Shown here one piece after another: positions 8,743-62,087 of a stretch of 64,000 nucleotides of DNA. The DNA comes from Syncephalastrum monosporum B8922 (Eukaryota > Mucoromycota > Mucoromycetes > Mucorales > Syncephalastraceae), in the NCBI GenBank assembly GCA_000697355.1, contig JNEN01000843.1:1-64000 (forward strand), given 5' to 3'. The notes beneath the pieces were generated by a model, which saw nothing but the letters and a program-made list of their open reading frames with translations, had not been told where the DNA came from and did no database searches. The position numbers and the translations under genes were made by a program. The stretch's first letter is position 1; each line of letters starts with the position of its first letter.

Positions 8743-9784
<1,042 letters not shown>

Positions 9785-10224: not shown

Positions 10225-11165
10225 ATGCAAGGTGAGATATAAACGTAGCATACCTGAGCATGGTCTCATCGGACAAATTTGTATCTTCCTGGCTTTTTCT
10301 AGCTAATGAGAACGACTTTATGAACACACCTACACGTTGCCTTTTGGAATGTGGAGACTGGAAGACGTTCGGTCCCGATGTAAATGAGCTTAACCCCTTC
10401 GATTGTCAATTTGGCGCTCGCAAAGACCTTGAGCAGCGACCACCTGCCCTCTCTTCTTCTGTCTCGCCACCGACGCCGCCTATGACGAGTCAAGAAAGCG
10501 ACTCGAACCGTGAAGAATCGTCTGCTTCTCCACCACTGTGTACAAATGTTGCTCTGCCTCAACAGAAGCAAACAACAAAGCAACAACCGAAAGCTACCAA
10601 AAAGAACGCGGGTCGTAAGCGACGCATCGTTTTCGAAGGCGAGGAAGCCGAGGACGAGCGTCGAAAGTTTCTGGAGCGAAACCGGGTGGCTGCCTTCAAA
10701 TGCCGCCAGAAAAAAAAGCAATGGATGCAAAACCTGGAGAAGCGCGCGGATGAAGTGTCGCAACGCAACCGAGAGCTGCATGACTTGATCACGCAGCTAC
10801 GTGAGGAAAGTGTTTATCTACGCAATCAGCTTATTGCCCACAGCGACTGCGACTGTACGGCTGTCCAGGCCTACCTCCGCAGAACCTCAGTACAGCTCGC
10901 TCTCCCTCACGCACAAGCTCCACCACCACATGTGCAGGGACAGCGACCGCCTTCCCCGCCGCAAGCGCCACAGTTACCACAGCAGCAGCCTTCTCGCCTG
11001 ATGCATCCTCCCATCCCAGATCCTCCGGCACCTCTCGTCAGCGCCGCACCGTCGATTCCACCCAGCACAGGGTTGACGCCTTTTTTGAATACAAGTCTCT
11101 TTGAAGACAGCAAACCAGACTACTTCTCCCACCATCAGCAGACGACAGCTGCGTCTATGGGTTAA
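10225..11165 (+). CDS. bZIP transcription factor, Atf1/CREB type
   Basis: The DNA-binding basic region contains ERNRVAAFKCRQKKKQW, with the family Asn-x7-Arg spacing, followed by a leucine zipper and the Atf1-like end LREESVYLRNQLIAHSDC. Fission-yeast Atf1 ends its zipper the same way (LLIAHKDC). Flanks are Ser/Pro/Gln-rich, as expected for activation regions. In Atf1 relatives the protein binds CRE-type sites and mediates stress responses downstream of a p38/Hog1-like MAP kinase; that role is inferred here. Two starts are possible. I prefer a 7-nt first exon (10225-10231) spliced over 10232-10302 (donor GTGAGA, pyrimidine-rich acceptor TTTTTCTAG) to 10303-11165. The alternative is ATG 10260 read without splicing, which adds a hydrophobic N-terminus and gives 301 residues. 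Confidence 0.93.
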
Positions 11166-33549: not shown

Positions 33550-36500
33550 ATGGCTGAGAAAACGGAAAGTCCCGAAATCGTCAGCGACGCTCCCGTGCCG
33601 CAGAAGTCAGAAATCAATGGCAACATCACCTCGCTTACGGTCGAAGAGCTGTATGACAAGGACAAGTTCGACCTGTCCACTATGGAGCAAGGCGACGTTC
33701 TTGCTCTCTTGCAGTACGTATCCAACTTTCTCCTTTTTTTGCCGCCCCCCTGGCACCCCCGTCTATTCTTTCCTTATTTTCTTAAATGGGCTCTAACGCG
33801 TTCTTTATTTGTCGATTAGAACCGACAAGAATGGTCTTTCCAACGAAGAGGCCGCTCGTCGTGTCGAGAAATTCGGCTACAACAAGCTCGAATCGAAGGA
33901 AACGAACCCTTTTCTTCAGTTTCTGAGTTTCATGTGGAACCCTCTTTCATGGGTCATGGAGGCCGCCGCCATTGTCTCGATTGCCGTCGCAAACGGTGAG
34001 GGCAAACCCCCGGACTACCCCGATTTTATCGGTATCATCTTGCTTTTGCTCGCCAACTCTGGTATCGGTTTCTATGAGGAGCGCCAAGCCGGTAACGCCG
34101 TCAAGGCCCTCATGGATGCTCTCGCCCCCGAATGTAAAGTTAGACGTAACGGTGAATGGCACACGATGGAAGCCGCTGAGCTCGTTCCTGGTGATATCAT
34201 CTCCATCAAGCTCGGTGATGTCGTTCCTGCCGATGGTCGTTTGATTGCTGTAAGTCCACATTAACATTGACAGAACTATGCATCAGATGAACTAACATCA
34301 CAAAATTTTATTTTTCATTATTTAGGCTCACGGTCAGGTGTCTATTGATCAGGCCGCTCTTACTGGTGAATCTCTTCCCGTTGGCAAGGAAGCCGGTGAT
34401 GAAATTTTCTCTGGTTCCACTGTCAAGCAGGGTGAGGCCGAGGCCGTCGTTATCGGTACTGGTCTGAACACCTTCTTCGGTCGTGCTGCCAAGCTCGTCG
34501 GTGATGCTGGTGATGACGTTGGTCACTTGCAGTCCATTCTTACCAAGATTGGTAACTTCTGCCTTGTTTCCATCGGTATCTTCGTCGTCGTCGAAATCCT
34601 TGTCATGTATGCTGCCTTCCGCTACAACTACCGTCGTGGTATCGACAACCTTTTGGTCTTGCTCATTGGTGGTATCCCCATTGCCATGTAAGTCTTTCAT
34701 TGGACGCACCATAGAAAATTTTTCGTTTCTGACCAATCAAATTTTTACAGGCCTACTGTGTTGTCCGTCACGCTCGCTATCGGTGCTAAGCAATTGGCTG
34801 AGCACAAGGCTATCGTCACCCGTATCACCGCCATTGAGGAAATGGCCGCTGTTACGATTCTCTGCTCCGACAAGACTGGTACTCTTACCTTGAACAAGCT
34901 GATCGTTGACAAGCCTACCATCAAGACCTACTCCGAGATCGACGGTGACGAGATTATTAAGCTCTCTGCCTATGCCTCGCGTACCGAGAACCAGGACGCC
35001 ATCGATTTCTGCATTGTCAACTCCCTGCCCGACCCCAAGCTCGCCCGTGACGGTATCGAGGAGCTCGAGTTCAAGCCCTTCAACCCCGTTGTCAAGCGTA
35101 CTGAGATCACCTACAAGCGCCTCGAGGATGGCAAGGTCTGCCGTGTCACCAAGGGTATGTCCCACACCATTTTGGACCTCTGCACTCGCGACAAGGATGA
35201 GGCTCAGATCAAGGCCCTCAACGATGATGTCGACGAGTTTGCCCGCCGTGGTCTCCGTGCCCTTGCTGTTGCTATCGACGAAGTTCCCTCTGGAGAGGTT
35301 GAGGGTGAAGGCCTTGGCTTCCGTCTCATTGGTCTGCTCCCCATCTACGATCCCCCGCGCTCTGACACCAAGGAGACCATTGACCGTGCTATTGCCCTCG
35401 GTGTCCAGGTCAAGATGATCACTGGTGACCAGCTTGCTATCGGCAAGGAGACCGGCCGTCGTCTTGGTATGGGCGACAACATGTTCTTGTCCAAGACCCT
35501 CAAGGATGGTCCTCCCCCTGGCTCCGGCTACACCTCCATCGATGACATGGTCCTCCAGGCCGATGGTTTCGCCGGTGTGTACCCCGAGCACAAGTACGAG
35601 ATTGTCGAGCGTCTCCAGGCTCTTGGCCACATGACCGCCATGACTGGTGATGGTGTCAACGATGCCCCCGCTCTGTCCAAGGCTAACGTCGGTGTTGCCG
35701 TTGCTGATGCCTCTGATGCTGCCCGTTCCGCTGCCGATATCGTCTTGGTTGAGCCCGGTCTTTCCGTTATTGTCGAGGCTATCATCGGTTCCCGCCAGAT
35801 TTTCCAGCGTATGCGCAACTATGCCATCTATGCCTGCTCTATCACCATTCGTGTCGTCGTCGGTTTCGCCATTCTTTGCTTTGCCTTCCAGCACGATTTC
35901 CCTCCCTTCCCCGTTCTTATCATCGCTGTCCTTAACGATGGTACCATCATGACCATCTCTACCGATCGCGTGAAGCCCTCGCCCTACCCCGACCAGTGGA
36001 ACTTGAAGGAGATTTTCACCTACGCTATCTTCTACGGTCTGTACCAGGCTGCTTCCACTCTCGCCTTCGCTGCCGTCTGCTTCCACACCACTTTCTTCCA
36101 TGACAAGTTCGGTGTCGAGCTTCCCGCGGACGTTAACGACCACATCTACCACTCGATCATCTACCTGCAGGTGTCTATCTTCTCGCAGGCTCTGATTTTC
36201 ATCACGCGTTCCCGCAGCTGGTTCTTCATGGAGCGCCCCTCTGTCTTCCTCATGTGCGCTTTCGTCATTGCTCAGCTTGTCGCTACCTTCATTGCCGTCT
36301 ACGCCAACTGGGGCTTCACCTACATGCGTGGCTGTGGCTGGGACTGGGCCGGTATCGTCTGGATCTGGAACTTCATCTGGTTCTTGCCTATGGACTTCGT
36401 CAAGTTCGCTCTCCAGTACTTCTTCACCCCCAAGAACACCCTCGCCGAGTCCAAGACCCCCATGGCTGGTGGCCAGAGCCGTCGCGCCTCTGCTGTCTCT

Positions 36501-36680
36501 GGCAGCTCGTCTGCTCGCTACTACGCCAACCGCACTCGCTCGCTGAAGTCTCTGGAGCGTCCCCGCAACTTTGGCCAGCGTCTGTTGAACATGAACAAGA
36601 AGATGAGCATGGACAAGAAGGAGATGCGCCGCTTCTCCTCTGCCCAGGCCTCGCACTCTGCCAACGTGCTCAACAACTAA
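33550..36680 (+). CDS. PMA1: Plasma-membrane P3A-type H+-ATPase
   Basis: Pumps protons out of the cell at the expense of ATP and sets the membrane potential for nutrient uptake. Four exons (33550-33713, 33820-34249, 34326-34687, 34751-36680) give 961 residues. Catalytic motifs are intact: TGES (211-214, actuator), CSDKTGTLT with phosphorylated Asp359, the nucleotide-binding region, [20 protein letters not shown], and [20 protein letters not shown] (from 617), plus ten predicted membrane segments. The loop [20 protein letters not shown] and the overall plan resemble plant and basidiomycete pumps more than yeast Pma1. The C-terminal regulatory tail is rich in Ser, Arg and Lys and ends [14 protein letters not shown]. 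Codon use is strikingly biased to C-ending and preferred codons compared with neighbours, a sign of very high expression. Confidence 0.97.
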
Positions 36681-39730: not shown

Positions 39731-42700
39731 ATGTCTGTTTCCACATCTATTGAAGCTTGCCTTCAAGATTTGACGGAGGCGTCTCGTACGAGTCTCAGTC
39801 TGAAGTCGATCGCGTCTGACCTTGCCACGCGCGTCATGGCTGACGTTGACGATGTCGATCGTGGTAGGACACTGTTTACTGCTTCGCCTACTGTGTGCTT
39901 ATTGAAGCCTTTCGTGCATTGTCCTTCCAGACTATGTATGCTCTTTACTTTTTGACCCCGATAACGGCATTCTACGGTTTATGCGACAAAATGGCTCTAC
40001 AAAGGATTCGAGTGCCGTTTCAGCTGTGACAACACTCCTTGACTTTCTTGTTTCATTTATACAAAAAGCACAGACGAGTCTGCAGCGTTACGCTCCATCC
40101 TTGAAACAGTGTTGTGTGGCGCTCATCAATGCACCTTCAAGCCGTGTCCAGTCCTCAGCATTGGATGTGCTAGCCACACTTCTCAACCCCGATATCAGCC
40201 AACTCGACACTTCTGTATTCAGAATTGACTCACTCTATGAACAGTACGGGAATTGCATTGGGGGTAGTGAAAGGTACTCATACGGTTGTATATGTATACT
40301 ACTAGGAACAAGCGTACCTATGCATCCTATACAAAAATCTCTGCATCAGTGAGATCAAGGACACTGATACTTATGGGGACGATCGCTCGATACTACCCAA
40401 GCGCTATCACCGACAATGACGTTCAAACACTCAAGCGTTGGACTTTAAGTGCGCTTGATGCCGAGCTTAAAAAGAATGTTGCTGAACATCAAATTCTATC
40501 GGGTGCGCTCGGTGCTATGGATGCCTTACTCTCGAGAGGGGATGTCAGCTTGGGTAAGAGCGCTTGATGAGGTTCACTGCAATCACTAACATTGAACAAT
40601 ACACAGATCAAAATGAACTGAAACAACTTTATGAGGCCGACAAGGCCATTCTTAATATTCCAGAGAAATTGTCGCGCTATGCTGCACCTACCGGTAATAT
40701 AGCCCTACCATGACTTTGTAATCTTTCTCATTGTTTATTCAGCTGCGCTTCAATTGTTCTGCAACCATGCATCCCTCTTTGAGCGTCATCTTATTGTCGA
40801 CAGCGAAATACTCTACAGCCGGTTTTCCAGCATTCGATTTCACAGAAATCATGATCTGTCCAAACTCGGTTTCCAGGCGATGGATGTTTTGATCGAACAA
40901 GTATTTATACTCTTATTTGTTTCGATATAATCACGGCTAATCGTCATTCCACGAAGACTGCCAATGTCCTGACCAAACTGACACCCGGACATACCGAGAA
41001 AGGCGTCTTTCGGGTAACTAATATGGTATATTGAGTGGATGTAATCTAACACGACGCTCTTTGCAGTTCTTCTTTCTCAAGTTTTTTGACGAAATGAACC
41101 AGGAAAGCGATAACACAGACTATCCTCGTGTTGCCGCGGCCATTAAAGGCTTTGGCCACTTTTCCAAGGTGTTCAGAAAGTTCATGCAGCAAAGCGAAGT
41201 TGACGGCTTGATACAAGATCTCGTCAAGAAAAGCGCATGGATTTTTACAGAGTAAGTTGCATTCCGTATTAAGCAGTATCTCATATGATAAACAGGGGAA
41301 CATTAGAGCATACGCGCTTGCTCAACTATATACCTTCTTTCATCGCTTCGTATAACCAAATCATACAACATATCGACAATGTATCCTCCGAATTCATGGC
41401 AACATTAACACGGGCGATTAATGTGTTTGTCACCGACTACCGCCGATTGTCGTCTTGGGCCCGGGAACAAGGCACCGAAGCCATTAAAGATACTCTACAG
41501 GCGCTCTATTCTAAAAGTGAAGGCGACGTGCGTGCATTCGCCACTAATACTTGTAAGTCAAGTATATGTCATTGACGCATGTGCTTACTGCTCTTTAGTC
41601 CATAATGCATTAGTATGGACCTGTACAGAAACGCGCAGAGACGCTCCAAACGAGATGCAAGTCTACGTTGAATATCTCGCTTTCTGGAAATCCATTTTCC
41701 AGACCGAGGAGCCACAGTCATTTGATTCAAACGACCAATTTCTGGGCGTTTTATATGATAGCTTTCTCACTGCATTGTTGCGACTCTTGAAGCTCTTCAA
41801 CCTGGAAGTGACGAGTGAGACTGCGCCTGATGCCACGCCGGATAAGCCCACACAGGGCGGCATCAAAACAGCAGACGACAAAGGCACCCGAGTCGCATCT
41901 GCTGCCATGCTTGGGACGATACTGCAGCCTGTGAACGAAATGGATTTTGTCCTCTTTCACAATATTGTCGGTTTCTGGTGTGCTCTCGTTCCCCAATTGC
42001 GGGGCGAACGGCTAATACAGTGGATACAAATTGCGGGCTTAGAGTTGATACAGCTCAGCATTCGACAGCCCTTGGTGAGCGGATTCTATCGTATGCTGGC
42101 GATCGTAATCACTATCACCGATCGTGTCGGGTGTTTTCGAGAATCTCAGAAGCTTTATCATAAACAACATGAGGCATTGAACGCACTTGAACCTACATCA
42201 CGGGTAAAATATCGGCTTCAAGCAGTTATGGGGAATGCTAATATATCGAATCTAGTCTGACATGTACGTCACCTACTTGTCTTTCCGAGATTTTCTCAAG
42301 GAAACGCGATACCGTCTCCAGCAATTCAAGGATGAACTTTTGGCCGCCTGCCTGCAGCTCGTCCTCACCGTACCCCTGACATTTTTCAATATTGATGAAG
42401 TTGTCCAGCCTTTGCAGACCGCGCTTGAGCTTGGCTTGACATATCATCCGTTGGCCACAACCGCGCTCTGTGCTCTTGATCAAATCACTGCGCCTGATGC
42501 GCCGACGTCGTCTGATCTCTCGTTTTTGGGAGCGGTTCTCCCGTATCTCAACGAGTATCTTATGGATCGACAGGAAATCGAAGGAGTCGACGATAGTGTT
42601 AAGCGCCGAAAGGCGTTCAACGTGGCGGCTGCCAAGAAGAACTTCCAACGCTGGCGTACGCTGAACGAATTCCAGACGTCTGAGTACGTTTCATTGCGTG

Positions 42701-45700
42701 ACCTGCAGTTACGGATATTGCGTTTCCTGGGCCGGCTTGGCGGGGCAAGCAAACTAATGATCCAAACGCCTCAGCATCAGAACAAGAATGAGTCGACAAA
42801 GGCGCTCAGTAGGACTTACAATAAGATGCTCGCCTGGGATCCTTCTCGACCCCTCAAAATTCGACTGGCCTTTCAAGGAGCCACCATTGATCTCTCTTTT
42901 GGTAAGTCGCTCTTTTACTTGTAGAATGTATTTTTCATTTTCTGCAGACGAACTGTTACCTCGCATATGTGATCTGGCAGAATCCTCGCCAGATCGAAAA
43001 ACCAAATCGGCCGCCTGTGAAGTGCTTCACGCCCTCGTACTTGTGATGATTGGCAAGTCTGCTCACAGACCAAGACAAGAAAAAGCCCCCACACGGTCAC
43101 CATATCATCGTATATACGTACACGTCTTCCCAGTCCTGCTACGTCTCGCGATCGACATCGACTCTATCCCTCGCAGCATGTTCCGAACTCTAGTGTTCCA
43201 GCTTATCCACTGGCTGACATCGAATGCCCAGGCCGAAAATCCAGAAACAATCGCACTGCTGGAGACATGTCTCGAAGCGGTATGCGACTCCAATGCATCG
43301 CTGCAAAGCTTTGGCGCTGAATGCCTTCAAGAATTTGTTGAGTGGTCGATCAAGCAATCAGGTCTTCGACAGAGTGGTAACACGATGAACATCAAATCAC
43401 TTTTGAAGAGACTGTACAATATGGCTTCGAATCCGCGACCGACGCTACGTCTAGGCGCCGCCATAGTCATCAACCACATTTACCGCATCTACCGCGAAGA
43501 AGAGCCCATCGTCAATGAGTTTACATTGGAGCTGTTCTACTGGATGCTTTTCAGTCTGCGTCTCGCCGAGAATGATCACCCCTCGATAGGCACACGCGAA
43601 CAGTCCAAAAACGCGATATCGCATGTCAAACGCATCCTCCGCGAAAAGGCACTTATTTTCTTGAAAGGCACGCCGGAACGACGTACGTTTCCTGGGATAG
43701 AAGAACCTACTCTGCAAGAAACGGTGGCATGGGCTTTCCAAGAAATTGGACAATTGGAGCGCGACTACGCACGAAGCTGCATGGACTTTTTTAGCGAGTT
43801 CGTTCTCACCATGCCTGGAGTTCAAAACGCAAAGGACTGGTTCCAGGAGCGTTATGAACGGAATGAGAGCTATATCACTGATATCCTGGAGACACAGCGT
43901 CTACGACCAACCCAAGTGAAAGGAGACAACGCGGCATCCTGTTTGCTCTGGCTTCGTCAGATGAACTGCGCTCTGGACGGCTACGTGTGGCTGATTGATC
44001 GCGACATGGTGTCGGTCATGACCGTCTTAAATCAGACATCCTCTGTGCTCTTGGACGCGTGTCACTATCTTGTTACTGAGGTGCCAGCAATACTGTCTTC
44101 GAACACTTTTGGCACCTTTGATCGGATACAACTTAATGCGCTATATGCTTATGCGACCTACAGACTGGCATGCTTTTTGAACTGTATCGCTGCTTCGAAA
44201 GAAAGCAACGATGCGCTTGGCCTGTCACGCGTTACTGATATACTCTTCACTGAAGACCTGAGCCGACTCCTCGCCCACGTATTCCTGTTACCCGACCAGT
44301 TGGTGGAAGTAATACAGGCAGAGCAAGGCGCCTTGTCGACATGGATGACTTCGGAAAAGATCCTCCACGTTATGCAGCTTTTCCTGCATGCCATGGTCGA
44401 GAAAGGGCCACCCAAGTTCTTGCGTACCTTCGCGAAGTCTGTCAACGCCATTATTCGTACAGACAATTTGGACGTAACGCAGCTACAACACGATCAAGGT
44501 AATTATCATATTGCTCTTTAGACTATGCGTCTCACTCGCTTCTATTAGGGGCGTTGACTGAGATGCTACAGACACTGCAGGGTTTCAAAGTGCTTCAATC
44601 TCTCAAGCTTTTTGACATGGTCTGCAGACAGAACAAGACGGCCGGACACGCGTCGTCTGATCAAGATTACTATGGAGACATGTTTGACAAATTTCTTGAG
44701 ATGCGTTCAAGCAGTGATCCTTTGCGTATCAGGCTCGTGGGTGACATGGTGCGAATTGCGGGCAGCAGCCTCTGTTCAGACAGTTCTTATTGCCAGAAAC
44801 TCCTCTCGAACGATTTGCATGGCCAGGAGCGGATCACTGTCTATGAAAAATTCCAACCCTATGTAAGCGTGTTCATTCGAAATCTACATCGATATTTAAC
44901 ATCAATGAAAAAAGATCAACGATTGTATCGCTCTGCATTTCAAAACCTTTGCACCGATCTTACTGGCCGACATTGAGGGCGATTTCATGCCGCGCGTTAT
45001 CATTGGCCTGGTGGAGTACTTGAAAAGCAACCGCAAAACGCTCGCAAACGAAATCAACTGTTTCACAACCGAGGAAAGTTATCACATGAATGGTGAAGTA
45101 GAGCTAGATGCTCATACACATTTGAATTTTTAGCTTGCGACTTCTTCGTTCTTAAAAGACCTGTAAGTAGATGAAAGTGTTAAGACAAGTAAGCTTACCT
45201 ATATCCCAGAATCGCCGCCTGGAAATCACAGTCAAAGCTTTTGAACCTTGCGGCGTTCCTAAAAGGCCTGTTTGGCGCTGATCCCGGTCTTTTATACCGT
45301 ACTGCGAACCAAGGCCATACCTTTGGGGTCTTTTATCAGGCGATCAAGGCTCTACTTGACCGGGACGCGCCACTATCAGTGAAAATGGAGGCATTTGATG
45401 TCCTGCCAGTATACCTTACTGTACAAGGAGAGCACGTCGACCGCATCATTGCTCTGGTGAGAGATACAGCAAGTTGGCAGCTCGGTATCAGGTCCAGAGA
45501 TCTGCGCGTCGGAAGCGAAGAGTACGTCGGTCTAGTTTGGCTTTATAACTCCTAACACATGTCGTAGATATAACCAATACATTGCCACACTGGACAAGAT
45601 CATCGACATGATGGTCTCTTTCCGTTCAACGCCTTTGTTCAATATTCTTCTCCCCTTATATATTCAAGAAGAGGACCATGTCCATGCTGAGGCCTTCAAG

Positions 45701-48700
45701 GAGGGATTTGCTAAGTTTGCCAAGTCGCTTGATATGAAACGATTCCATGACCTTACGGAAACCTGCTTGGCGTAAGTAGCAATACAGCAATGCAGCATAT
45801 ATTAAACCTTGTATACATCTAGATACTACAAGGATGATGGAAACAGAATCGAAATTCGGCGTAACGTCATCAGTTTACTCGTTTCGCTGTTTATACTTGT
45901 ACCCGACGAGTATGTCGTGAACTTTTACATGGACAACATTCTCTTTATTATGACTGGCGCAACGCGACAGCTATTGCGGCGTGGCACGGACGAAGAGATC
46001 AGGGTGGACATGGAAGAAAAGACATGCTGTATTTACCTGATGCAAACATTTTATATTCGCGTACGACATGGCAAGCAGTTTGGTATGCGGAGCGAAGTCA
46101 GCAAGAAATGGGAACAAGAGACGGGAAATATGAGTGACAAGGCAGATGCCAAGGGCAAGATCATGATGACCAAGCTCGTGGACGCGCTTGATCAGGCCAA
46201 ATCGGAACAGGTATACTTCTAACTTTGGCGAAGGAAGTGCTCTAAATGGCCCTTTAGAACCCACAAGAAGCCGAAGTGCTGGCCGAGACAAGACTACGCT
46301 ATCATCAGATGGCCTACAACACTATGACTGTCGCTATTCTAAATACGCAAACCAAGGAGGCGTTCTTGAACGGTTTCCTTCTGAAAGCCCGTAAAGGCGC
46401 TCACTGGGAGAACATCATTGACCTGAAGAAACTAAAAGAGACTCGGCTTCAAATTGAGCTCGATCAACCTTTGATGACGACCCGTCTTGGCGAGTTTCGA
46501 GAGAGAGCCGGTTTCAGAAAGCAAGATAGCGGATCACGCGTAAACTACATTGCATCGATGCAGTTGGCGGGAAGCAGGTAAGAGCAACAAGCGCTTATAG
46601 TATCTACCACTAATTACGTGGGTTCCTAGTCTGGCCCAAGCGTCTCTGTCAGATGTAAGTTCGGTATTAGAAATGAATCAAATCTCATATAAGTATTACA
46701 GATGGCACTGGCAGCAAGCGGTCAAGCATCTCCTATGTCTATTGATGAAGATGAAGACACTGGAGATAGCGCTGATGTAAACAAGATTGAAGAAGATGAA
46801 AAGGAGTTCGGAGAAGTATCAGGACGGTAAGTCGCGCTGTCGCCTCCGCCACTTTTCCTTACGTGCAGCTTTAATAGAGGAGAGAACGAGCTGGAGATGG
46901 ACATATTTAACAAGAATCCATGCATGACCTTCCTTGTGCAAACCATCAAGCGTCTGCATTCGACAATTTCGCCGCCAGATCCGACCAAACCCACGCCCGC
47001 TTGGATGAATACCTTGTTATCGACGTTTAAAAAAGCAGGTAATGAATACAGTTAAAGGTACTGAGCTATTACTGATCATGACTTCGACAGAAGATAATGA
47101 TTCTGGGATTCCTCTTCGGCTATTTCTCGCCAAAGTCATCATCAATCTCCCCGCTGCCTTTGAGCCTTACGCCGAGCTCTGGATTCGTCCTCTCATGCGA
47201 CTTGTAGCACAAGGCGCTAAGTATGGTGACCCCATGAACTATTTCGTTCAGGTATACGCGCACTTTGATGTAGAAACACAGCGTTGTTGACATGTTCACA
47301 GGATCTTTGCTATGTCATTCTCGCTTGGGGCAAGAATGTAAAACTCGAGGACTCTTACGAGGACAAGACACTTTTGTTTCATTTTACCGTAAGTTCTGGA
47401 TGGGCAACGATTGCCTGCAGCTGATTGCGAGCATAGAACTACCTCATGGAAAATGCATACTACGAAACGGCTCGCATTGCAAAGAACCATGTCCAAATAG
47501 TAAAAAATGTGATCGAGAATTGGGAAGATCGCCTTATCCCGCCCACGGTAAAAGGAAACATTTGCTCCTGTGTATCATAAATCTTATGCTCTTCTACAGA
47601 AAACTATGTATAGCCAGTTTAATCCGAGAGACAAGAATGCAGGTCAAATCCGCGTGGGCCTCCAACTTGTTGGCGCCATCCTCGTGCATGACATCAATCC
47701 GTTTTACAACGGCGAAGGATTCAGTCTGGATGGCTTGACTGAACATCAATTCTACGCCGCGATATGTGATAATATGGATAATAGTAGCCGTGAAGTCTCT
47801 GCCACAGCTGCTGAGGTAAGTCAGAAGACAAGTACGACAAGAACAACGGCTCATTGTTGTCTGTTAGCTTGCTGCTTTAGCGCTAAAGCTAATGATTGCA
47901 AAGCGACGCGAAAACGTCGACGTGGAGGGTATGATAATCGAGAAGGTAATTTCATCTTGCTGTTCCTGTATGTGTATAGTTAACACTTATTTAAATTAGC
48001 TGAAAAGAATGGATCCTTTAAGACAAGAGAAGGCGAACAACGGCAAATTCCTGAGCTGCATCTACAGAGTCCAGACACATCGGTCCGAAATCGCAAACAA
48101 ATTTGTTAACAAGGTCATCTACTTGCTACCGAGCCTGGTGGGAGACTTGAAGGTGCTGGCTCTTCAAATCGTGGGCCGCGCCGTCGGAGAGCTGGACGAC
48201 GTATTCAAGGTCCTCGAGAGTAAAGGGTTGCTGGCCATGTTGGGCATGAGGTAAGGAATGAAGAACACTAAAACGAGACTGGTACCTATTCGCATTCAAT
48301 AGAAACGTGGACGCCCAGATCGCTTTGCTCAGCATGCTCGATCAGATCGCACCAACATTGAGCTCGGATAACATAAGCACTATGCTAGACACCTTGGTGG
48401 ATCTATTTGCCAAGCACGCAAATGTGGAGTGCCGAGTACGTTTTCATTTCCTCTCTGAGCTTAACTGACGCCGGTCTTAGGTTTTATACTTCTCTATCTT
48501 GCGCAAATGCTACGATACGCTAATGGACATTTCGCCGCTAAAGGATCGGATTAACTCAGAGATTCTTAAGGGCCTACTTGATGCCGACAAGGTGATACAG
48601 CAGACAAACGTAGAGTTTGTCGAGACGCGGCATGGTTTGAAAGAAGAAATATTTGACGTGATACAAGGCCTATTAAGGTGAGTGCCATTGTATATGCACT

Positions 48701-51700
48701 GACTGATAAGCCTAACCATATATACCTAAGTACTGCGTATACACCGTCAGTGGAAGATATGTACATCTTGTATGGCACTTATATACTGCTGGAGAGCGCC
48801 AAAAAGCACCAGGATTATGGCAGTCTGTTATTTGACGAGCCGTTACCCAAAGCACGATTTGACGAACACTACCAGAAAATTGACACCTCCTGGCAGGGCA
48901 GTACGTCCATGACTCCATTATTTGTGGCCACACAGGAGCCTTCCACAGTGAGTTCACATTGTATATTATGTTCAAAACTTAACTTTATGTAATAGGTCAA
49001 CCCAGAAGAGCTAGAGCTACAGCTCCGGAGAACTCAACAAGAACTTGCATTCAGCAAAACGCAAGACGGATACTGTAAGTGGGAAAGATTGTCGTAAAGC
49101 ACTCGTCTAACCAAATGTGACCTTTCTGTCTAGCCGGTGCTACCATTGCGTCCACTTTTCAAGCACCCACGCCGGAAAGTCTGTCGAATGTGCTTTTACC
49201 AACATCATCAGCCGCTGAGGCAAGTCAGCAAGCAACAGATAGCTTTAGGCAAGTGCTGCACCCGAACAAACGTGAAGAAAACATACTGATACGGGCTACC
49301 ATCTTAGAAAATCGGTCGGGAGGACGAGGGCCAAGACGGATCGTGCCTATGAAAGAATCGGCAAGCGTTTCATTAAGACGAGCGACCGGGATTCGACATA
49401 CTTTTATCGCAATCGTCACGAACGACAGCGCAAAACGCTACAGAGCTTGGAAGCCATGCGGAAGCAGCAGCGCGAAAAAGCCGTCACCATGTTCCGAAAT
49501 TATCGTATAGGTTAGTAGAACAGCACTATATAGTTAATCACCGACTGATTCATCACAAAAAGGCGAGCTTCCTGATATACAGATCAAGAACTCGGACCTC
49601 ATTGTACCCTTGCAAGCGCTGGGTGGACGTGATAACGACATCGCCCGCATTCTGCACGCTCATATCGTGGTTTCTTTCTCGCAGTATGCTGACCTTCATC
49701 TGCAAGAGAAGAGACCAGACTATATGCAAGGCATTGTGGATCTTGTCCAGGACAAGCTAGCCAGGAGTATTCTATACTTTCCACCGACCATTGGCGCCTT
49801 TCTACGTGTGTGCCTCGATCTGAATGCAGCTGCCGTTGACAGTACCGTCGTGAACACGGTCAGCGAAAGGAGCCAAAACCAGCATGCTGGTATTGCTGTA
49901 TTGGAAGCGCAGCTAATATCGGGCGCAAGCGAAGCCCTAGAAAGACGTAAGCAGACATCATAGAGTAGGAGGGTCAGACTCATACAGCGTCTTTAGCATC
50001 GAAGCGGAAGCGTACAGGTGGAACTGCAAGCACACACAGAAGCAAAGTGCAATGGACTGACCTGGCCACCTTGTATAAGTCCATTGACGAGGCAGAAGTC
50101 TTCCAGAGCCTTTATGTGAATCATGTGGCATCTAATGATACTGTAAAAGGTTCGTATTTTCTGCAGTTCTTTCATAATGACTGACAGGGTCTCTATAGAT
50201 GCGGTGGAGAACGAAATGCGTGCTGATTATGTCGAAGCACACGAAAAGTTTATGGACGCTTATGGGCGTTTCAAAGATGAAGCCGATAGCCGTGAGGTAA
50301 GGCCCATAATTCCCGATACCTATATTCTTAATACTCACTTTCTTAAATTAGCTTGATCTTTGGCAGAAAGAAGGTCTCCGTTGTTTGGAGCAGCTCGCCC
50401 AATGGGACGATATTGCTATGCAAGTCAAAGACACAGTCGAAGGAAACTACTTTAGTCTATGGGACGAGGACAAGAAGGTAAGTCTAAGGACAAGTACCTC
50501 GTAACAGGTTCTCATTTTAAGCGTAGGACCCTTATCTCGGCGCATTTGTCCATTCCTTCACGAGACTGCGCAAAGGCATCATGATCGATCAAAGCAACCG
50601 AGCCGACTGGACAGATGACAATCCCAACCCAATCTACGTCTGGCTTTCAGACGCTTTCCAGTCAAAAGACAAAGAAGAATACCTCTTACAGAACCATGCT
50701 TGCGATGTCACATTAGTGACCATGTATCAAGGCAAATACGAGCGAGCTTTGCGCTATCTCCAGCATTCGTATGATGATATGCTCTCTTTGTGGAGCAGCC
50801 TCCACCCGCTTGCGCATGTCAGCCGCATGGCGCGTCTCTCTATTCTGCAGAGGGTAGGAAGGCGATAATTTATAACGCAACGATCTGACCTCCATATAGA
50901 CGGTGGAACTGGAAGAGTTCCTAAAGATCGTTACGGAATACCAGAGAAAAAAGAAGGAGATGCCCATTGCAGAGCGCGTTACCGAGTACGTTAAGCTCTT
51001 GCAAGCGAGGTAGGATAGCAATCTCACACATGTATCCTCTACTAAATAACATGCGCCTAGATATCCTGATCCAAAGCGAGATGGCACAGACGTCTGGGAT
51101 GATATCATCCAGGGTCGAAATATGTTTATGGAGGACCTTAAGGGCGTTATTGACCAAAAAGACGTAAGTAGCGAGGGAATGTGGCTCACACGAGACTCAA
51201 TCAGCATCCAGCTCCCGAGCCCGGTTTTGCTTGCCCTGAATGCTTGCTTCAAGTCCAATATCCTTGCAGAAATTTCTGCTGCGAAGCAACAAAACAACTT
51301 TACGCTCGCCTACAATACGATCAGCAGCTTCTCAGAGCTGGATGTGACGAAAGCCGAAAAACAGCTTGTCTATCTACAGTTGCATCTTCAGTGGGTCCTG
51401 TCAGCCGAGGACAGCATCCGAGCATCCCAACTTCTCGGACGAGGCATTGGTCTGACTTATGAACAAGAGGTATTTATTATGTTCTTACCTGGAGCTTGTC
51501 TTATACATAGCATTAGGAGCCTTTGCGTCCTCTCCTGGCATCATCGGACTATGCGCGCGAGTACTTTATGACAGGATCCAAGATACTCGAGACGGCTCGG
51601 CTGTACCTTCAGAGTGATCCTAAACTGCTCGATCAAATGCGTGTTTCAAAGTCCTTTGCAAAATGGCTCAAGAGCAGAGGCTTGCATGATGCCAAGTCAG

Positions 51701-54602
51701 TAGCTAACACACTCGTGCTGTCTGGCACGCGCTATTTGCAGGATATTTTGAAGGACACAGTAGAGAATGTGAGTGTGCCCAATAGGTTAGTAGTGGTATA
51801 CTTACTTCTTCTCCTATAGACACATTTGCGTGCTGAGTGCGTCTGGCGCCTCGCTGAATACTGTGATAATGCGCTTCGAGCCAATGAAGACCCCTCATCA
51901 AAAGTCATTGTGAGTTGTTCAATCGCGTTCTCTACCGCACAGAACAGAAGAAATTTGCTCACAGAAAGTTAGGTTAAACTTGACGCCAACCATTATGCGC
52001 AAACAATTATTCAAAACTATTACGAGTCCATGAGCCTGGATGTGGTAGAGGCCATCGAGCGTTTTCCTCGACTCCTAGAGCTCATTGAGCTGTATCCAGA
52101 AGTACAGAAGAGTTTCAAGTACCATGTAAGCAGGGGACGCTTTCCTTGCAATGCCTGAAACTCATCGTTTTCTTAGGCCGAGACCTTCAACGTGTCGTGG
52201 ATGTATATCCGTTGGCTTCCGCAACTCGTTGCGATACTCGACACCTCACTTGCCCATTGTGTCTTTCCGATTTTGCAGAAGGTCGCCAAATCCTACCCAA
52301 GCGCACTGTATTATCCATTCCGCATCAGCGAAGAACACTACTCTGCTATAGGCAGTCGTTTGGAGAAAAAGAATCGTGAAGAAATCGAGAAGATCAAGCA
52401 GATGATCTATTCGCCCCTGATGGAAGATTTTTGTACGGAGCTCCTCAGGTTGACTAACCCAGATCAGCTCTTAAAGGACTTTGTGGATTTCCTCAGAGTA
52501 AGTCTTTATACGAATAAGAAAATAGTATCTAATTTTGGGCTAGTCGGTGGCAATGAACACAGAGACAGACAAGGAGTACATTCAAGCCATGTATCGCCAG
52601 TTCTCGGAGCTCCTTCTCAGTCCGACCAACAGCAGCCGCTATGGCGTCATTCCGAAAGCATTTGCAACGAAGCATGCTTCTCAACTGCGTGGTTTGTTCG
52701 GTAAGTCTTTTTAAAGAAGGAGCGATAGTCGCTGAAGATATATGCAGGAAAGGATGGTTCCAAGCTTTTGAACTTGTCGCAACGCGATCTCAAGAGAATA
52801 GGCGATTATCAGCGAAACATCAAGATGGAGTCGGGCCGTGAAGCTGGTCTCCTAAAGTCCTACTCGCCATGGCTCTCGACGTTTCAGGCTGCCAACTTCA
52901 ACGAGGTAAGGCTTGTAAAATCTGACGGATCAGTATCAAACTTCTGACGCCGCCGCTGCAGTCTATTGAAGTACCAGGCCAGTATTCAGGCCTGTCTCGG
53001 CCTTATCCCGAATACCACGCCCGTATTGCTAGCTTTGACGACCGCCTGCTGGTCATGAGCTCCTTGCGCAAACCCAAGCGTCTCAAAATATATGGCTCAG
53101 ATGGACAAGGGTATCTTTTCCTAGTCAAGGTAAGTTCGATATACACTGAGTCGGGAATTCCCCATTCTCAAGGGAGATCTAGGGCGGAGAAGATCTGCGG
53201 CTGGATCAGCGTATCGAGCAATTATTTGGCGTCATGAACTCCATTCTTCTGCGTAATGCCTACTGCGCGCGCCAAAGCATCAGTGTCGCCACCTACAAGG
53301 TGGTTCCGATGGCCTCCAACATTGGTATCATCGAATGGGTGGAAAACACCAAGCCACTCAAGTCCTGCCTTGATGCCGAGGTCCCTCCTTCTGCGCTCAT
53401 CAGTGCTAGAAAGGCCTATCTGGCCTTTGTGAACAAACATGGATCAAGTGTAACGAGTAAGTCACTGGATGTAATGGGGTTCTCCATGACTCATGTTATC
53501 TTTGGTAGGCTATGTCACTTCCTATGCAAAGGAGTCGCGCGACAGTGCTGTACGCGCATTCGAGCAATCCGTGTCTCACCTAGAGCCCAACTACTTGCGA
53601 CGCTACCTACTAAAACTCGCTGCGTCACCCGAAGCCTTTTTCTTCATCCGAAACGGGTTTGCCAACAGCCTGGCCGTCACATCCATATCTGGCTACGTTC
53701 TCGGTATTGGTGATCGCCATCTGGAGAACTTAATGGTGGATCTGAAAAGGTGAGCGAGAATGTGGGTATATGAGACACATACTGAATCTTGTTTCCTTGT
53801 CTTGTAGTGGCCGCCTTGTTCCTATCGATTTCGGCCACGCCTTTGGCTCAGCGACGGAGCAACTACCCGTACCTGAACTGGTTCCTTTCCGTCTTACTCG
53901 CCAGCTCGTGGGTACTTTGGCTCCTCTTGACGTCGCTGGTATTCTCGAAACGCCCATGACGCACATTATGAAAGGTAAAGTAGGACACTATGTCGAAGAA
54001 TATAGTTTTCTCATTTTATCTCATAGCCTTCCGACACGAAAAGAGTTTGCTACTCAACACGATGGATGTGTTTATCAAAGAGCCGCTCCTTGACTGGCGA
54101 AAGCGTGCCATGAGCCAAGCTAACCACCAAAGTAAGCCTTCCATTAGCTATCTCCCTTTTACTTATTGCGTGCTTTAGAGCGTGGTAACTCCAGCCCAAC
54201 GTCTGAAAGTGCTTCAACGACATCCTCTTCGGATGCTGAGATCGCATGGTATCCATACCAGAAAATTGACATTGCAAAGCGTAAATTAGCAGGCGAGAAT
54301 CCTGCTCGTAAGTGTTCCGTTTGCTTGAAGAAAAATGGCGTACAGTTTCACTCACGCATTTTTTTTTTTTTTTTTACTTAGATATTGTGGCAACTGAGGT
54401 TAGAAATAATGACAGCCCGCACGTGAAGGCTGCGATCGGTAAAATCGAGGAGGTCATTATGGGCGACGAGAAGCATAATGTGCGTGCCCGCATTGGGCCT
54501 ATCTGCTCTGATACACACCAGCAAGTCCAGGCCTTGATTGATCTCGCCACCGACCCGAGTATTCTGGCTCGCATTTGGGGAGGCTGGCAAGCGTATTTGT
54601 AA
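39731..54602 (+). CDS. PRKDC: DNA-dependent protein kinase catalytic subunit (DNA-PKcs)
   Basis: PI3K-like kinase that, in animals, binds DNA ends with Ku70/80 and drives non-homologous end joining. Splicing gives 4076 residues (human about 4128), in frame throughout. HEAT-type N-terminus and middle include QFKDELLAACLQ, MFRTLVFQLIHWLTSNAQ and LPDIQIKNSDLIVPLQAL; FAT region includes YPDPKRDGTDVWDDII. Kinase: EVPGQYSGLSRPYPEYHARI, LVKGGEDLRLDQRIEQLF, GIGDRHLENLMVD (Asp3858, Asn3863), IDFGHAFGSATEQ (DFG Asp3877) and the DNA-PKcs-specific PVPELVPFRLTRQ. FATC ends LATDPSILARIWGGWQAYL. Exons: 39731-39863, 39931-40273, 40306-40553, 40607-40693, 40743-40900, 40957-41013, 41067-41251, 41296-41552, 41599-42203, 42256-42901, 42948-44498, 44549-44862, 44915-45097, 45134-45162, 45210-45521, 45568-45771, 45823-46210, 46258-46577, 46630-46654, 46702-46826, 46878-47038, 47091-47251, 47302-47388, 47437-47547, 47600-47815, 47868-47945, 48000-48250, 48303-48435, 48481-48677, 48731-48947, 48996-49074, 49134-49248, 49308-49510, 49563-49946, 49988-50149, 50199-50296, 50352-50477, 50527-50853, 50900-51009, 51061-51469, 51517-51768, 51820-51909, 51973-52125, 52177-52497, 52544-52700, 52748-52905, 52962-53129, 53183-53456, 53509-53749, 53808-53974, 54027-54131, 54179-54307, 54382-54602. 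Intron 32 is GC-AG. Confidence 0.97.
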
Positions 54603-55158: not shown

Positions 55159-57595
55159 TTAAGTCTCTTTCGAGGCTGCTGCGCGCAAGTTCGCTTTGAT
55201 CTGCTTGAAAAGCTCACGACCTGCATGACAAAAATTAATTAGAAATGATAATTTACCCAATTCGTTCAACTCACCGCCCAAGAAGGAGTGGTCCAAGGGA
55301 CCCCATTCCACTTTCCAGGGGTCGCCGTCCTGCAACTTTTCAATCTCGTTCCAATCCTCAAACACGGCCGAGTCATCCAGCGGGATCTCGCGGTCGTTGG
55401 CAGTGACAATGCGGGTGATCTTGCGGGTTTTGTACGTGGCAATGATGTGGATGCGCTGCGCGAGACTCTTGCCCGTGTCGGTCGGGTGAACGCGGATCCA
55501 CACGCGTTGACCAGGATTGATGCTCGGCACCGTTATGTGGCGGTGGTTGGGATCGGCTATATATGAGGGACATCGATGAACATCGTATTCTCCTTCCTTT
55601 CTTTTTCTTTCTTTTTCTTTCATTACTGAGAGGTACTTACATTTTGGGATTTCCGGGAGGGCCTTCTTGGCTGCATTCTTTTTACTCGTACTACTGCTTT
55701 CATCTACCTTGGGCTCTTCCACCTTGTAGTAGCCGTATTCATTGGAGGGCACTATAAGTATACCCATCAGAACTATGATCCATGTTTCCCGTGATGGCTC
55801 AATTACCTTCATTCTGATATTGCATCTGATTTTGTAGCAGGTCATGCAGAGGAGGTGCGCCCGCGCGAAGCACGTTGGCTGCCGGGTAAGTTCGGGAGGG
55901 GTAGACGTCATCGGTTGTGTAAGAGTAGTTTATGTAGGGTGTGGGTCTTGGTGTCGCGTGGGCAGGCATGGCGGACGAAAGGACACTCGAGGGTGGTTCA
56001 ATGACGGTGAGGGAGGGCTGTTCAGGTATAAGGAGCGATCCAGCTGACTTGGAGCGACCGTGCTGCTGGTAAACGGGCCGTGCTGGAGTGGTCGGCTCCT
56101 GCTCCACCTTTTCATCCGTCTTGTCGTCTCTAAGCAGGCCCTGCAGCCGTGCTTGCATCATGGACATGGATGGCGAAGGCGTCGCGCGATTCTGGTAGAG
56201 ATCCGAAGGGCGCCGCGGTTGAATGGCAATCCGGAGCTCTTCTTTATCCTGGTCGGCGGCATGTTTTTCTGCCACAGTGTGTGTGATGCCTTCGTCTTCT
56301 TCACCGACGGAAGAAGCATCATCGTTCTCATCGCTGTCGTAAGCGTCGTCATCTGCGATATCTTCGGGCGATACCATGGAGGCCGGCATTGTTACACCTT
56401 TGGCACGTGGAGCAGGCTCCTCGTCATGTTCCCGATGGCGTTGCTTTTGCTTCAGGTTGCGGTGCTCCTGGAGTTGCCGCTGGTGTCTCTCTTCTTCTGT
56501 GACAGCAAACGAGTCTGCAAATGGATCGTCTTCACTCTCTGCGCCATCACTCTTGTCCGCCGCCTCGGATTCATCTTCAGACGTCTCTTCGCGCTCCACG
56601 AGTTTCTCCTTTGCCTTTTGGCCAGTGGTCATTGTGCTGTTTTCATCACGGCGCTGCCATACCACAAGGCCTTCATCGTCCGAGTCGTCACTGTGAGAGT
56701 GTTCATACCGCGTGACATCAGGCGTCGTACGAGTTGTAGTGGTTTTGACAGAGGAAGCAGAAGCTTCGTTCGAGTCGGGTTTCTGGGGTGGTGCCGTCTT
56801 AACGGTGGATGGGATCAAAGGGGAAACATGTGTGGCCATGCCCGAGGAGGGTCGCTTGGGCTGATTGGCAGGCGAAGAGGTTCGTGGTGCGTTAAATTTC
56901 GGCAGAGGCATGTCCATGAAATCCATCTTATGCGTTGGACGTGAATGCTGTTGCTGTCGTTGCTGTTGTTGTTGAGGCGGCGGTTGTTGAGGATGAGGCT
57001 GTTGATGATCGTGCGGGAAGGGAGGTATAATGAACATCGGCGGATTCGCAGGCTCGCGTCTCTGCGAGGTGGCAAAGAGCGACTGGCCGACCGACGGCGC
57101 AGATGGTTGTGGCGCCGGCGGATGAGGTTGCTGGGGCTGCTGATGTTGAGGCTGATGCTGATGCTGATGCTGTGGCTGCGACTGAGTCTGAGACTGGGGT
57201 TGAGGAGGTTCAATAACAGGCGCCGGGGAAGGAGCAGGCGGTGGAGCAAAGGGTGTCATTGAGCTGGATGAGTCCTGGTGCTGTGGTGTGTGGAAGGCAC
57301 TGGATTGTGGAGGGGGTGTAGGTGTAGTGTAGGTAGCAGCAGGTGGCGGGAAAACAGCAGCTGATTGTGGAACTTGTTGATGGTGTTGTGTGGAAGCGGT
57401 GGTAGAAGAAGGAGGCGGAGGAGGGGTGATGTGAGGTTGAGAATGCGTGTGCTGAGGATGAGCGTAAGCAGCATGATTGTATTGCTGTGGAGGATAGGTG
57501 GCTTCAGTATGTGTACGTGCAGGATACGACGGATACTGATTGTGATTGTGCTCCGGATAGGGTTGAGATGGTTGCGGTTGAGGATACGACGGTGT

Positions 57596-57643
<48 letters not shown>

Positions 57644-57689
57644 ATGGTGGTGGTGGTGGTACTGATGCGGAGAAGGAGGAGTAGGAGTA

Positions 57690-57743
<54 letters not shown>

Positions 57744-58486
57744 GGGGACGGCGGTGGCTGGCTTACTTGTGAGACGTGAGAATAGGTGCGGGGACGCTGA
57801 TGAGCGTTATTATTGTCCGTGCTTTCGGTGTAAGGTGGAGGTGGCACTTCCCTGTTGGTGCTTAGTGCTCCAACGGGTCGCACAGGAATGCTACTGCTGC
57901 TGGATGAGGCTGAAGAGTGGATCGGACCCGTGGGGCGTGACGAGGACGCAGGTGTAGCAGCAGAAGACGAAGGAGGACCATTCACTTAAATATGTAAGAA
58001 AAAGACAGGGTCAGTGGCACATGCTACCATGAACGGTGGTTGAAAAAACTTACCAGAATGATATGCGGCAGGTTTTGCCGGGAGCGGAGGAGGAGCATCC
58101 CCATTGGGATGCGTGCCACTGCTGATATTGTGGTTGCTACTACTGCTGCTGCTCGCCACCGCAGGCGGAGTCACTGGTGCAGGGGACACGACAGGAGCAG
58201 GCGACTGGAGAGGCGAGGGGGACTGGGGAGGCGAAGCGACGATATGTGAGGGTAATGCAGGTACGACCGGCTCGGTTTCAGGTGTAGTGGCATGGGCTGC
58301 ATTGGTTGTACTGCTCTCATTAACTTCTTCCTGCAGCTTGCGAGCGAACTCTTCGTCGGCACGTTCCTGCTCCAGACGGCGCTGTTCTTCCTCTTGATAC
58401 CGTCGGTCTTCTTCCTCTTGTAGTCTTTGTTGAAGCTTGAGGGACTTGCCCTGCTTGTGGTCTTTGCTCCTCCAGAAATGACCCAT
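55159..58486 (-). CDS. Large low-complexity protein with polyQ/polyA tracts and a compact C-terminal domain, function unknown
   Basis: Five exons (minus strand: 58486-58054, 57984-55807, 55751-55641, 55556-55275, 55220-55159) splice to 1021 residues. The first in-frame ATG gives MGHFWRSKDHK. A charged coiled coil follows (LKLQQRLQEEEDRRYQEEEQ, then DEEFARKLQEEV, which looks like a ubiquitin-interacting helix). The long second exon is Pro/Ser/Gln-rich with pure polyalanine and polyglutamine runs and His repeats. It then turns acidic (DDPFADSFAVTEEE and many Asp/Glu/Ser) and is probably disordered. The last 110 residues look folded, with alternating beta-like strands: QRVWIRVHPTDTGKSLAQRI, IATYKTRKITRIV, FEDWNEIEKLQDGDPWKVEW. 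I do not recognise the family. A scaffold or trafficking role is only a guess from this layout. Splice sites are standard. Confidence 0.82.
57598..57643. repeat. (CTGTTG)n polyglutamine-coding repeat
   Basis: Alternating CAG/CAA codons on the minus strand give an uninterrupted polyglutamine run of about 15 inside the large unknown protein. A His run (GTG/ATG on the plus strand) follows directly. Confidence 0.9.
57692..57740. repeat. (GCA)n polyalanine-coding repeat
   Basis: About 16-17 GCA units on the plus strand, read on the minus strand as an alanine run. Repeat purity suggests recent expansion. Confidence 0.9.
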
Positions 58487-59249
58487 CGGTGAAATGAAGG
58501 GGCGGGGGAAAGGTGGGCTTCTTGTTGGCTGAGCCACGTCTTTAAATGAAGTGGCCGAGCTGAGATATAATTCTTGGTGGGGTCATCACTTTGCCAAGCA
58601 CTTCTCTTTTCTTCTTTCCCATCCTCCCTTTGTTTAACGCCTTGGCATTAGGATGGTCTATCGCTCCATGCCTTTCTAAAAATATGCTGTTGGGGGTATA
58701 CAAACCCCATCAACTGGCTGCACACCAGGGCTACATAAGACAACATCATGCAAAGAGAGCCACAGGGCAACTGATCGCCTGGCATATCTTAGCGAAGTTC
58801 TTGTTGCTTGACAACCCACTATTGATTCGTTCGAATCTTTGTCAGCGACCACCCGAACTCCTTCAAGCTCGCTTATTTGGCTATGTATGCTTTTTTTTCT
58901 TGGCCAGGTAGAAACATCTGTGTCAAGCAGAAAACTGTCTGGTCACGCATAGTTTTGCGTTACATCAAACTAGCCTACGAAATTTCGTTCCGAAATCAGT
59001 TCTCGTGGACTACCCTTCATTTTTATTATACATACCGGCTACCGGGACCGGGGTCGTCGATACACGCTCACGGCGTGTTGGTCACTGCCTCATCTATACT
59101 GTGCAGCAGAATGCATTTTTGAGTCACAGTTTCATATTATCAACCACAAGCACTTACCGATGGACGTGGGGCAGACATTTGGCGCAGAGGCACATGTCTT
59201 TAGGGGGGGGTAGTTTTGACGGTGGTCCCAGCCACCGAAAGCCGGCTGG

Positions 59250-61011: not shown

Positions 61012-62087
61012 TTATAGTGGTCGAAAGCGCGCACCCTGACCGCGTCTCTTGTGTTTTGGGGCGACTTTCAAGGAGTTGAACTTCTTTGTCGAACACCATA
61101 CACGATATCCCTCTGTGACATGGTTACCCCTGCCGTGCAGCTTGCAGATCTTGTCCTGAGACGAGGGCGATCGAGCATTGCTGCCTGAAGAGGCAGCGTC
61201 ACCAACCCGAAGGCGGCGTTGCTCGTACGATCCCTCCAGTGCCAGGGCGAGACCAGAAACCTGCCGGACTGTGCGCTTCAAACGTGCAGGAAGAGAAGCG
61301 CGGGCAATATAAACCCTGTCCGCAATGGCAGGTCTTAAACCGTTGAGATAACGGTTGAGTGAAATCTGGTCATCGTCCTGACCTGCGTTATGACGGAGCT
61401 GATGGAACCGAGCAGTGTACTCACCTACCGTTTCCTTCTTGCCCATCTTGCACGCCATGAACGCTTTGACGTTCAGTGCGTCCTGCACAAAGTCGTCAAC
61501 TGCAAAGTCGCGTTCATAGATGGCGCGCGCGAAGGACCAAGGACGGTGTCGGTAGTATTCAAGGTTGTCAGCAAACCAAGAACGTTGCTCGGGCGAAATC
61601 AGGATGGCATGTACCGGTGCCACACTCGGTCCATATCCTGGTCATGGGCGCGCACAACATCCTCGAATGCCCTGAAGCATTCTTGGACATTGGCGTACAC
61701 CGTGCTCTCGGGACGCCAGACATAGCCAGTTTACTGAAAGTAAGGGAGCTTGTCGGGCGCACGCGGCGAACCCGAGAGAAGACGGTCGCTACCTGCGTGA
61801 TGACAGGTCGCAGCAACCAGCTGCATAGCAGCGTCCATCTCTTGAATCTCCTGAGAGAGGATCGTGATCCGCTGGCGAAACTCTTCGCATAGCTGATCGT
61901 TGCCTAGACGACAAGCCTCGGCGCAGGACACTATGAGCTGTGCAAGCTCGGCACGCAGCAACTGGATGCTGGCCTGGGCACGCTCTGCAGGAGAGGAAGC
62001 GACGGCAGAAGAGGAGGTCACCGAGCGAAGCACCACTTCGCGGTCAACGTTCACGACGTTGGTGATGGGGCCGTAGGTTTGCGACAT
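61012..62087 (-). mobile_element. Ty3/gypsy-type retrotransposon gag remnant (frame-broken)
   Basis: Minus-strand gag-like sequence in three reading frames. The first piece (62087 to about 61731) is a Gln/Ala/Glu-rich coiled-coil N-terminus. The second (about 61725-61627) includes a helical capsid-type segment. The third (about 61620-61012) carries the rest of the capsid-like domain (for example EYTARFHQLRHNAGQDDD and LNRYLNGLRPAIADRVYIA) and a knuckle-like Cys/His segment (CKLHGRGNHVTEG) that lacks the usual next Cys. The frame changes, with stop codons between pieces, show it is not translatable as one protein. No protease, reverse transcriptase or integrase follows within 1 kb downstream, and I could not define LTRs. 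It is probably a dead or internally deleted element. Confidence 0.75.

Follow-up and report, generated by a model that had tools for sequence, protein, structure and literature searches.

We analysed a window of 64,000 nucleotides, positions 1-64000 of contig C85 in a Syncephalastrum genome of 27.5 Mb and 198 contigs. By its family-specific domains, its scores against solved phosphatidylinositol 3-kinase-related kinases (PIKKs) and its place in a small kinase tree, the gene at 39731-54602 of the window is DNA-PKcs (PRKDC orthologue), the giant kinase with which animals repair DNA breaks, in a full-length and apparently intact copy. Its ATG at 39731 and the stop codon ending at 54602 can be read directly from the sequence, and both sit where a preliminary description, made from the letters alone, had placed them. 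The features of the locus are as follows.

39731..54602, + strand: DNA-PKcs gene, 52-54 exons, 3971-4021 aa (splice models, Pfam, PDB matches, tree)
39933..42738, + strand: DNA-PKcs_N (PF20500), residues 46-824, profile 2-810 of 810, E = 2.2e-88
43049..44083, + strand: DNAPKcs_CC1-2 (PF20502), best stretch, residues 913-1230, E = 2e-77
45875..47334, + strand: DNAPKcs_CC3 (PF08163), residues 1710-2096, E = 5.3e-50
47437..49918 (start approximate), + strand: DNAPKcs_CC5 (PF19704), residues 2115-2766, profile 5-692 of 692, E = 1.8e-108
49249..49307, + strand: putative GC-AG intron of 59 nt, within the loop that precedes YRPD (splice modelling)
49501..49615, + strand: YRPD motif YRIGELPDIQIKNSDLIVPLQ, split by the intron 49511-49562 (pattern search, exon bounds)
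50701..52077, + strand: FAT domain (PF02259), residues 2943-3315, E = 1.8e-12
53112..54100, + strand: PI3/PI4-kinase domain (PF00454), residues 3594-3851, E = 5.8e-58
53709..53729, + strand: catalytic loop GDRHLEN (sequence, motif search)
53827..53835, + strand: DFG motif (sequence, motif search)
53866..53904, + strand: PVPELVPFRLTRQ, corresponding to PVPELMPFRLTRQ in solved DNA-PKcs (alignment, motif search)
54510..54599, + strand: FATC domain, E = 4.7e-9 in the genome profile search, over cut-off, and 2.1e-8 in the protein

We searched a 3977-residue model of the protein against Pfam and mapped the domain residues back to window coordinates. All seven families scored over cut-off, the four that are specific to DNA-PKcs (DNA-PKcs_N, CC1-2, CC3 and CC5) together with FAT, PI3_PI4_kinase and FATC, the last three in that order. 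An earlier, partly misjoined model, scanned as two pieces, matched the identical families. The profile search proposed with the preliminary description supports its claim that the protein follows human DNA-PKcs from the HEAT region to the FATC tail. GDRHLEN, IDFG and PVPELVPFRLTRQ occur once each in the protein, and the catalytic loop, the DFG aspartate and the family-specific segment are intact, as had been claimed. YRIGELPDIQIKNSDLIVPLQ agrees with the invariant YRxGxxPD (YRPD) pattern published in PMC10419180, as given in the available part of that paper. Four of 18 SQ/TQ sites lie within the 150 residues before the YRPD motif, a number that 8 of 383 windows along the protein reach. Shuffles of this segment reach four sites in 729 of 2000 trials, so the density does not exceed what its composition would produce, and the cluster was dropped as a sign of conserved autophosphorylation control.

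We searched the same genome for the partners of the kinase in non-homologous end joining. Profile search with the Ku beta-barrel gave 4 matches at two loci. The protein on C165 carries Ku_N, Ku and Ku_C and is read as a predicted Ku70; that on C22, a Ku80, carries Ku_N, Ku and Ku_PK_bind, the latter at 2.2e-35 in the protein and 2.1e-28 in the genome scan. The alignment of this Ku80 with a solved Ku80 (6zha) spans the C-terminal domain and runs on into the ...GDVDDLLD tail of the solved protein. The automatic Ku80 model overran the stop after LAQMLE, and the tail was read from the DNA as ...EEGDEDDL, an intron, LAQMLE and the stop, which gives an acidic DDLL tail. As proof of a DNA-PKcs partner, Ku_PK_bind alone is weakened by a 2025 survey which, in the portion of it available, reports the domain in nearly all fungal Ku80 surveyed, fission yeast included (PMC11936186). 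XLF was found on C42 (E = 6.2e-19) and DNA ligase IV on C126, the latter by the DNA_ligase_IV family (1.2e-5) and BRCT, in a model that also took in the adjoining ribosomal L18A gene. Two further DNA ligase loci, on C108 and C133, are by eye what we take to be replicative DNA ligase I. The DNA-repair metallo-beta-lactamase domain occurs at three loci, on C170, C171 and C42. The nuclease on C170 is closest to Artemis (108.7 bits vs 93.7 for SNM1A and 78.9 for Apollo), and those on C171 and C42 are closest to SNM1A (261 bits vs 52 for Artemis, and 187 vs 37, respectively). XRCC4 had no match over cut-off in the genome profile search, where a single sub-threshold match lies inside the XLF gene.

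An animal-like end-joining branch in Syncephalastrum, which the preliminary description had proposed along with a search for Ku70/80, XLF and Artemis, is supported by these predicted genes, because DNA-PKcs is accompanied by Ku70, Ku80, XLF, ligase IV and an Artemis-like nuclease. In such a branch, as homology suggests, Ku70/Ku80 would thread onto a broken DNA end, and the C-terminal helical domain of Ku80 and its acidic DDLL tail would recruit the giant HEAT-repeat kinase. DNA-PKcs would then hold and protect the end and phosphorylate itself and its partners; the activated kinase would license trimming by the Artemis-like nuclease, and DNA ligase IV with XLF would carry out the sealing. The open frame, the domains and motifs and the partner genes are shown; that the gene is spliced as in the models and expressed, and that its product is recruited, active as a kinase and at work in repair, is what we infer. 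The locus is very probably a functional DNA-PKcs orthologue in a fungus. A true orthologue could also act mainly outside end joining, in signalling or at telomeres, while end joining itself proceeds as in yeast. We consider this unlikely. In its favour, fission yeast keeps Ku_PK_bind without the kinase, according to the parts of PMC11936186 and PMC8549938 at hand, the genome search returned no XRCC4, and no ATM was found, so that the kinase may serve signalling. XLF, ligase IV, the Artemis-like nuclease and the acidic tail of Ku80 speak against it.

We rebuilt the gene with a dynamic-programming splice model of our own and varied the intron penalty. A free start fell at 39731 at penalties of -6 and -8 and moved to 40373 at -10, and at -12 the model collapsed, leaving 896 aa; two of these four models stopped at 54602 and one at 54653. 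In later models the start was forced at 39731 and the stop left free. With a minimum exon length, all four penalties led to 3997-4005 aa in 52-53 exons, ending at 54602; with GC-AG donors permitted, the models gave 53-54 exons, 3977-4021 aa and the stop at 54602 at three penalties. An untuned splice variant led to 3971 aa. The uninterrupted frame of the preliminary description and its 53 exons fall within these results (52-54 exons), whereas its 4076 residues were not reproduced (3971-4021). A first self-trained splice model was dropped, its low intron penalty having ended in 142 introns and 2310 codons, and models with micro-exons gave way to the minimum-exon and GC-AG-permitting models. Splice-site scores were trained on the DNA-PKcs gene itself and are thus partly circular. 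On the reverse strand the same method with a free start yields 214 aa at best, and each of five first-order Markov shuffles gives 18-67 aa; the long open frame is therefore far above chance expectation and real.

Doubtful joints in the gene model lie at 40244-40359, ~41553-41640, 43053-43133, 45078-45266, 49134-49378 and 49947-50047. Between 49134 and 49510, every frame-preserving GT-AG intron is either weak or unusual in length. A GC-AG intron at 49249-49307 (AG/GCAAGT...TTAG) keeps the frame with a textbook donor; it replaced a 146-nt intron (49190-49335) of the minimum-exon model, and the modelling indicates that it is probably used. A second, doubtful GC-AG intron at 43053-43133 was chosen at two of three penalties, and the other introns were modelled as GT-AG. 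A recently dead or otherwise non-functional copy, its frame open only through introns chosen to fit, would agree with splicing that is predicted, with some six junctions in doubt and with the single GC-AG intron. We regard such a copy as very unlikely: introns in the GC-AG-permitting model have a median of 52 nt and a range of 44-116, the catalytic motifs and YRPD are undamaged, the matches to DNA-PKcs_N and CC5 span nearly the whole of each profile, the partner genes are retained, and neither shuffled nor reverse-strand DNA gives anything comparable.

Around the apparently intact DNA-PKcs gene, the window holds a P-type ATPase-like gene upstream (33797-36680, + strand), scanned at 34692-36677 with a hydrolase domain found; we presume the P-type label from a DKTGTLT motif. 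Downstream of the kinase, three frames on the - strand (55159-58582) are partly Gln/Pro-rich with no Pfam match, and an open frame at 61012-61641 (- strand) has a sub-threshold match to retrotransposon gag. Further away are a tRNA gene (1315-1387, + strand), a Nop14 gene (6636-8337, +), a forkhead gene (9029-9829, -) and a bZIP gene (10236-11165, +). None of the ten window frames scanned by Pfam matched an MCM family, in contrast to the human pair of PRKDC and MCM4.

We determined the complement of PIKKs in the genome by profile searches that work exon by exon and score the best candidates only. FATC gave five matches from six candidates, on C98 (TOR), C85 (DNA-PKcs), C155 (SMG1), C19 (Tra1/TRRAP) and C178 (ATR). 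The TOR was identified at 601 bits, the SMG1 (C155 ~402500-412400) reaches 393 bits with the top-scoring SMG1 structure, and Tra1/TRRAP is marked by Tra1_ring at 5.4e-282. The ATR carries ATR-specific Pfam families and scores 373 bits to ATR vs 230 to Mec1 and 184 to Tel1. The PI3/PI4-kinase profile gave 16 matches, at the five FATC loci and on C127, C117, C146 and C141, which by their motifs we take to be lipid kinases. Chitin synthase gave 10 matches in six contigs, which, we would say, mark the genome as fungal. IFT57 was not found in the genome search, which fits a fungus without flagella. Two FKBP-type isomerase genes adjoin at C177:34146-35419; the best match of the FKBP12 is 6vct/6vrx (176.5 bits vs 172.6 for the next), presumably a Mucor entry and as such a weak lean.

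The DNA-PKcs gene is found on one contig only, as it would be if that contig were contamination from another eukaryote that bears DNA-PKcs. This is highly improbable: splice-site and codon parameters trained on the window yield 1965-3069 aa for TOR, Tra1, SMG1 and ATR elsewhere in the genome, and the Ku80 with the matching C-terminus lies on a different contig.

Comparison with solved structures sets the protein apart within the PIKKs. The 2460 C-terminal residues of an earlier model match DNA-PKcs at 1.1e-275 and the next PIKK, mTOR, at 9.2e-49 (among the best 60 of 113 matches); the kinase and FATC region scores 378 bits to DNA-PKcs and 167.5 to the next PIKK, a Tel1 (among the best 60 of 154). 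We take PDB entries 5w1r, 5y3r and 7k17 to be human DNA-PKcs (PRKDC). An unrooted tree was computed from 10 kinase domains, five from the Syncephalastrum genome (DNA-PKcs, ATR, TOR, SMG1, Tra1/TRRAP) and five references. References other than ATM were copied from PDB alignments, with their species as we presume them, and the ATM row is a presumed ATM sequence. In this small sample of 10 sequences, the protein of the window joins human DNA-PKcs at an SH-aLRT of 97.9 and a UFBoot of 99, and its kinase domain is 49% identical to that of human DNA-PKcs over 284 sites and 22-37% identical to the other eight. The branch that unites ATR with ATM lacks support (16.8/50). The PIKK tree proposed with the preliminary description thus gave no placement with ATM, ATR, Tel1 or Tra1, and neither the best match nor the tree position fell with ATM/Tel1, ATR, TOR, SMG1 or Tra1. 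That another PIKK (ATM/Tel1, ATR/Mec1, TOR, SMG1 or Tra1/TRRAP) was mistaken for DNA-PKcs has a negligible probability: FAT, kinase and FATC regions are common to all PIKKs and cross-matches are significant, but four DNA-PKcs-specific Pfam families match, TOR, SMG1, ATR and Tra1/TRRAP have separate loci elsewhere in the genome, and the tree parts the protein from all of these and from ATM.

An ATM/Tel1 locus was not found by three genome searches (FATC, PI3/PI4 kinase and a human ATM probe). All 13 matches of the ATM probe lie on C155, C98, C127, C19, C85, C117 and C178. ATR was hit by this probe through two short exons, of which one covers 40 residues (48% identity, E = 4.4e-4), and an ATM orthologue should therefore have been detected; given the exon-by-exon scoring of best candidates, we regard ATM/Tel1 as provisionally absent. 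The genome would then hold DNA-PKcs, ATR, TOR, SMG1 and Tra1/TRRAP without ATM/Tel1, and DNA-PKcs, as the sole dedicated kinase for double-strand ends, might assume the signalling and telomere work of ATM, a tentative reading that we place somewhat short of an even chance. Because no ATM/Tel1 was found, we speculate that DNA-PKcs and ATR may split the break signalling done elsewhere by ATM. If ATM is truly absent, the fungus offers a natural experiment on DNA-PKcs and ATR covering for it. The titles and abstract openings listed yielded no literature on ATM/Tel1 loss in such fungi. The provisional absence of ATM/Tel1 may be newer than the DNA-PKcs finding itself. PMC8401276 was set aside as a Tel1/ATM paper for Mucoromycota, TEL1 being a domain label of Tor2 in the part of it available.

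The surprise of the preliminary description at a DNA-PKcs in a fungus was overstated, real though the gene is. On the authority of Lees-Miller et al., a review, in the text available, reports the kinase from Mucoromycota and Chytridiomycota but not from Dikarya, and it describes yeasts as without it (PMC8549938). Fungal DNA-PKcs is thus already in print, and the Syncephalastrum gene adds a further member to a known family. Our literature search found no paper that combines DNA-PKcs with Mucor and ku70, and the accessible part of PMC9779921 mentions DNA-PKcs merely as part of the general pathway. The gene supports DNA-PKcs being ancient and lost in the lineage of yeasts and mushrooms, not an animal invention, and it offers a complete and compact locus whose partners are found together in one genome of 27.5 Mb.

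Compared with known systems, the Syncephalastrum gene resembles by description the DNA-PKcs reported from Mucoromycota and Chytridiomycota by Lees-Miller and colleagues (in the part available of PMC8549938), a fungal DNA-PKcs outside Dikarya. ATM/Tel1, ATR/Mec1, TOR, SMG1 and Tra1/TRRAP share the PIKK kinase-FATC core with the window protein, but reach less than half of the DNA-PKcs score in the kinase region (among the best 60 of 154 matches) and fall outside the DNA-PKcs pair in the 10-sequence tree. Yeasts show the opposite of Syncephalastrum, where DNA-PKcs is present and ATM/Tel1 was not found: they lack DNA-PKcs and, we assume, keep Tel1, of which solved chains are among the matches listed. 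Human DNA-PKcs differs in the sequence of its kinase domain, of which the fungal one retains 49% identity, and from the fungal gene of ~15 kb with its short introns (median 52 nt); residues 2608-2717 of the 5y3r chain, presumably the stretch of ABCDE phosphorylation sites, are unaligned in direct sequence comparison. It is otherwise of similar length (4128 aa) and shares with the fungal protein the DNA-PKcs_N, CC1-2, CC3, CC5, FAT, kinase and FATC regions, the catalytic motifs, the YRPD motif and PVPELxPFRLTRQ.
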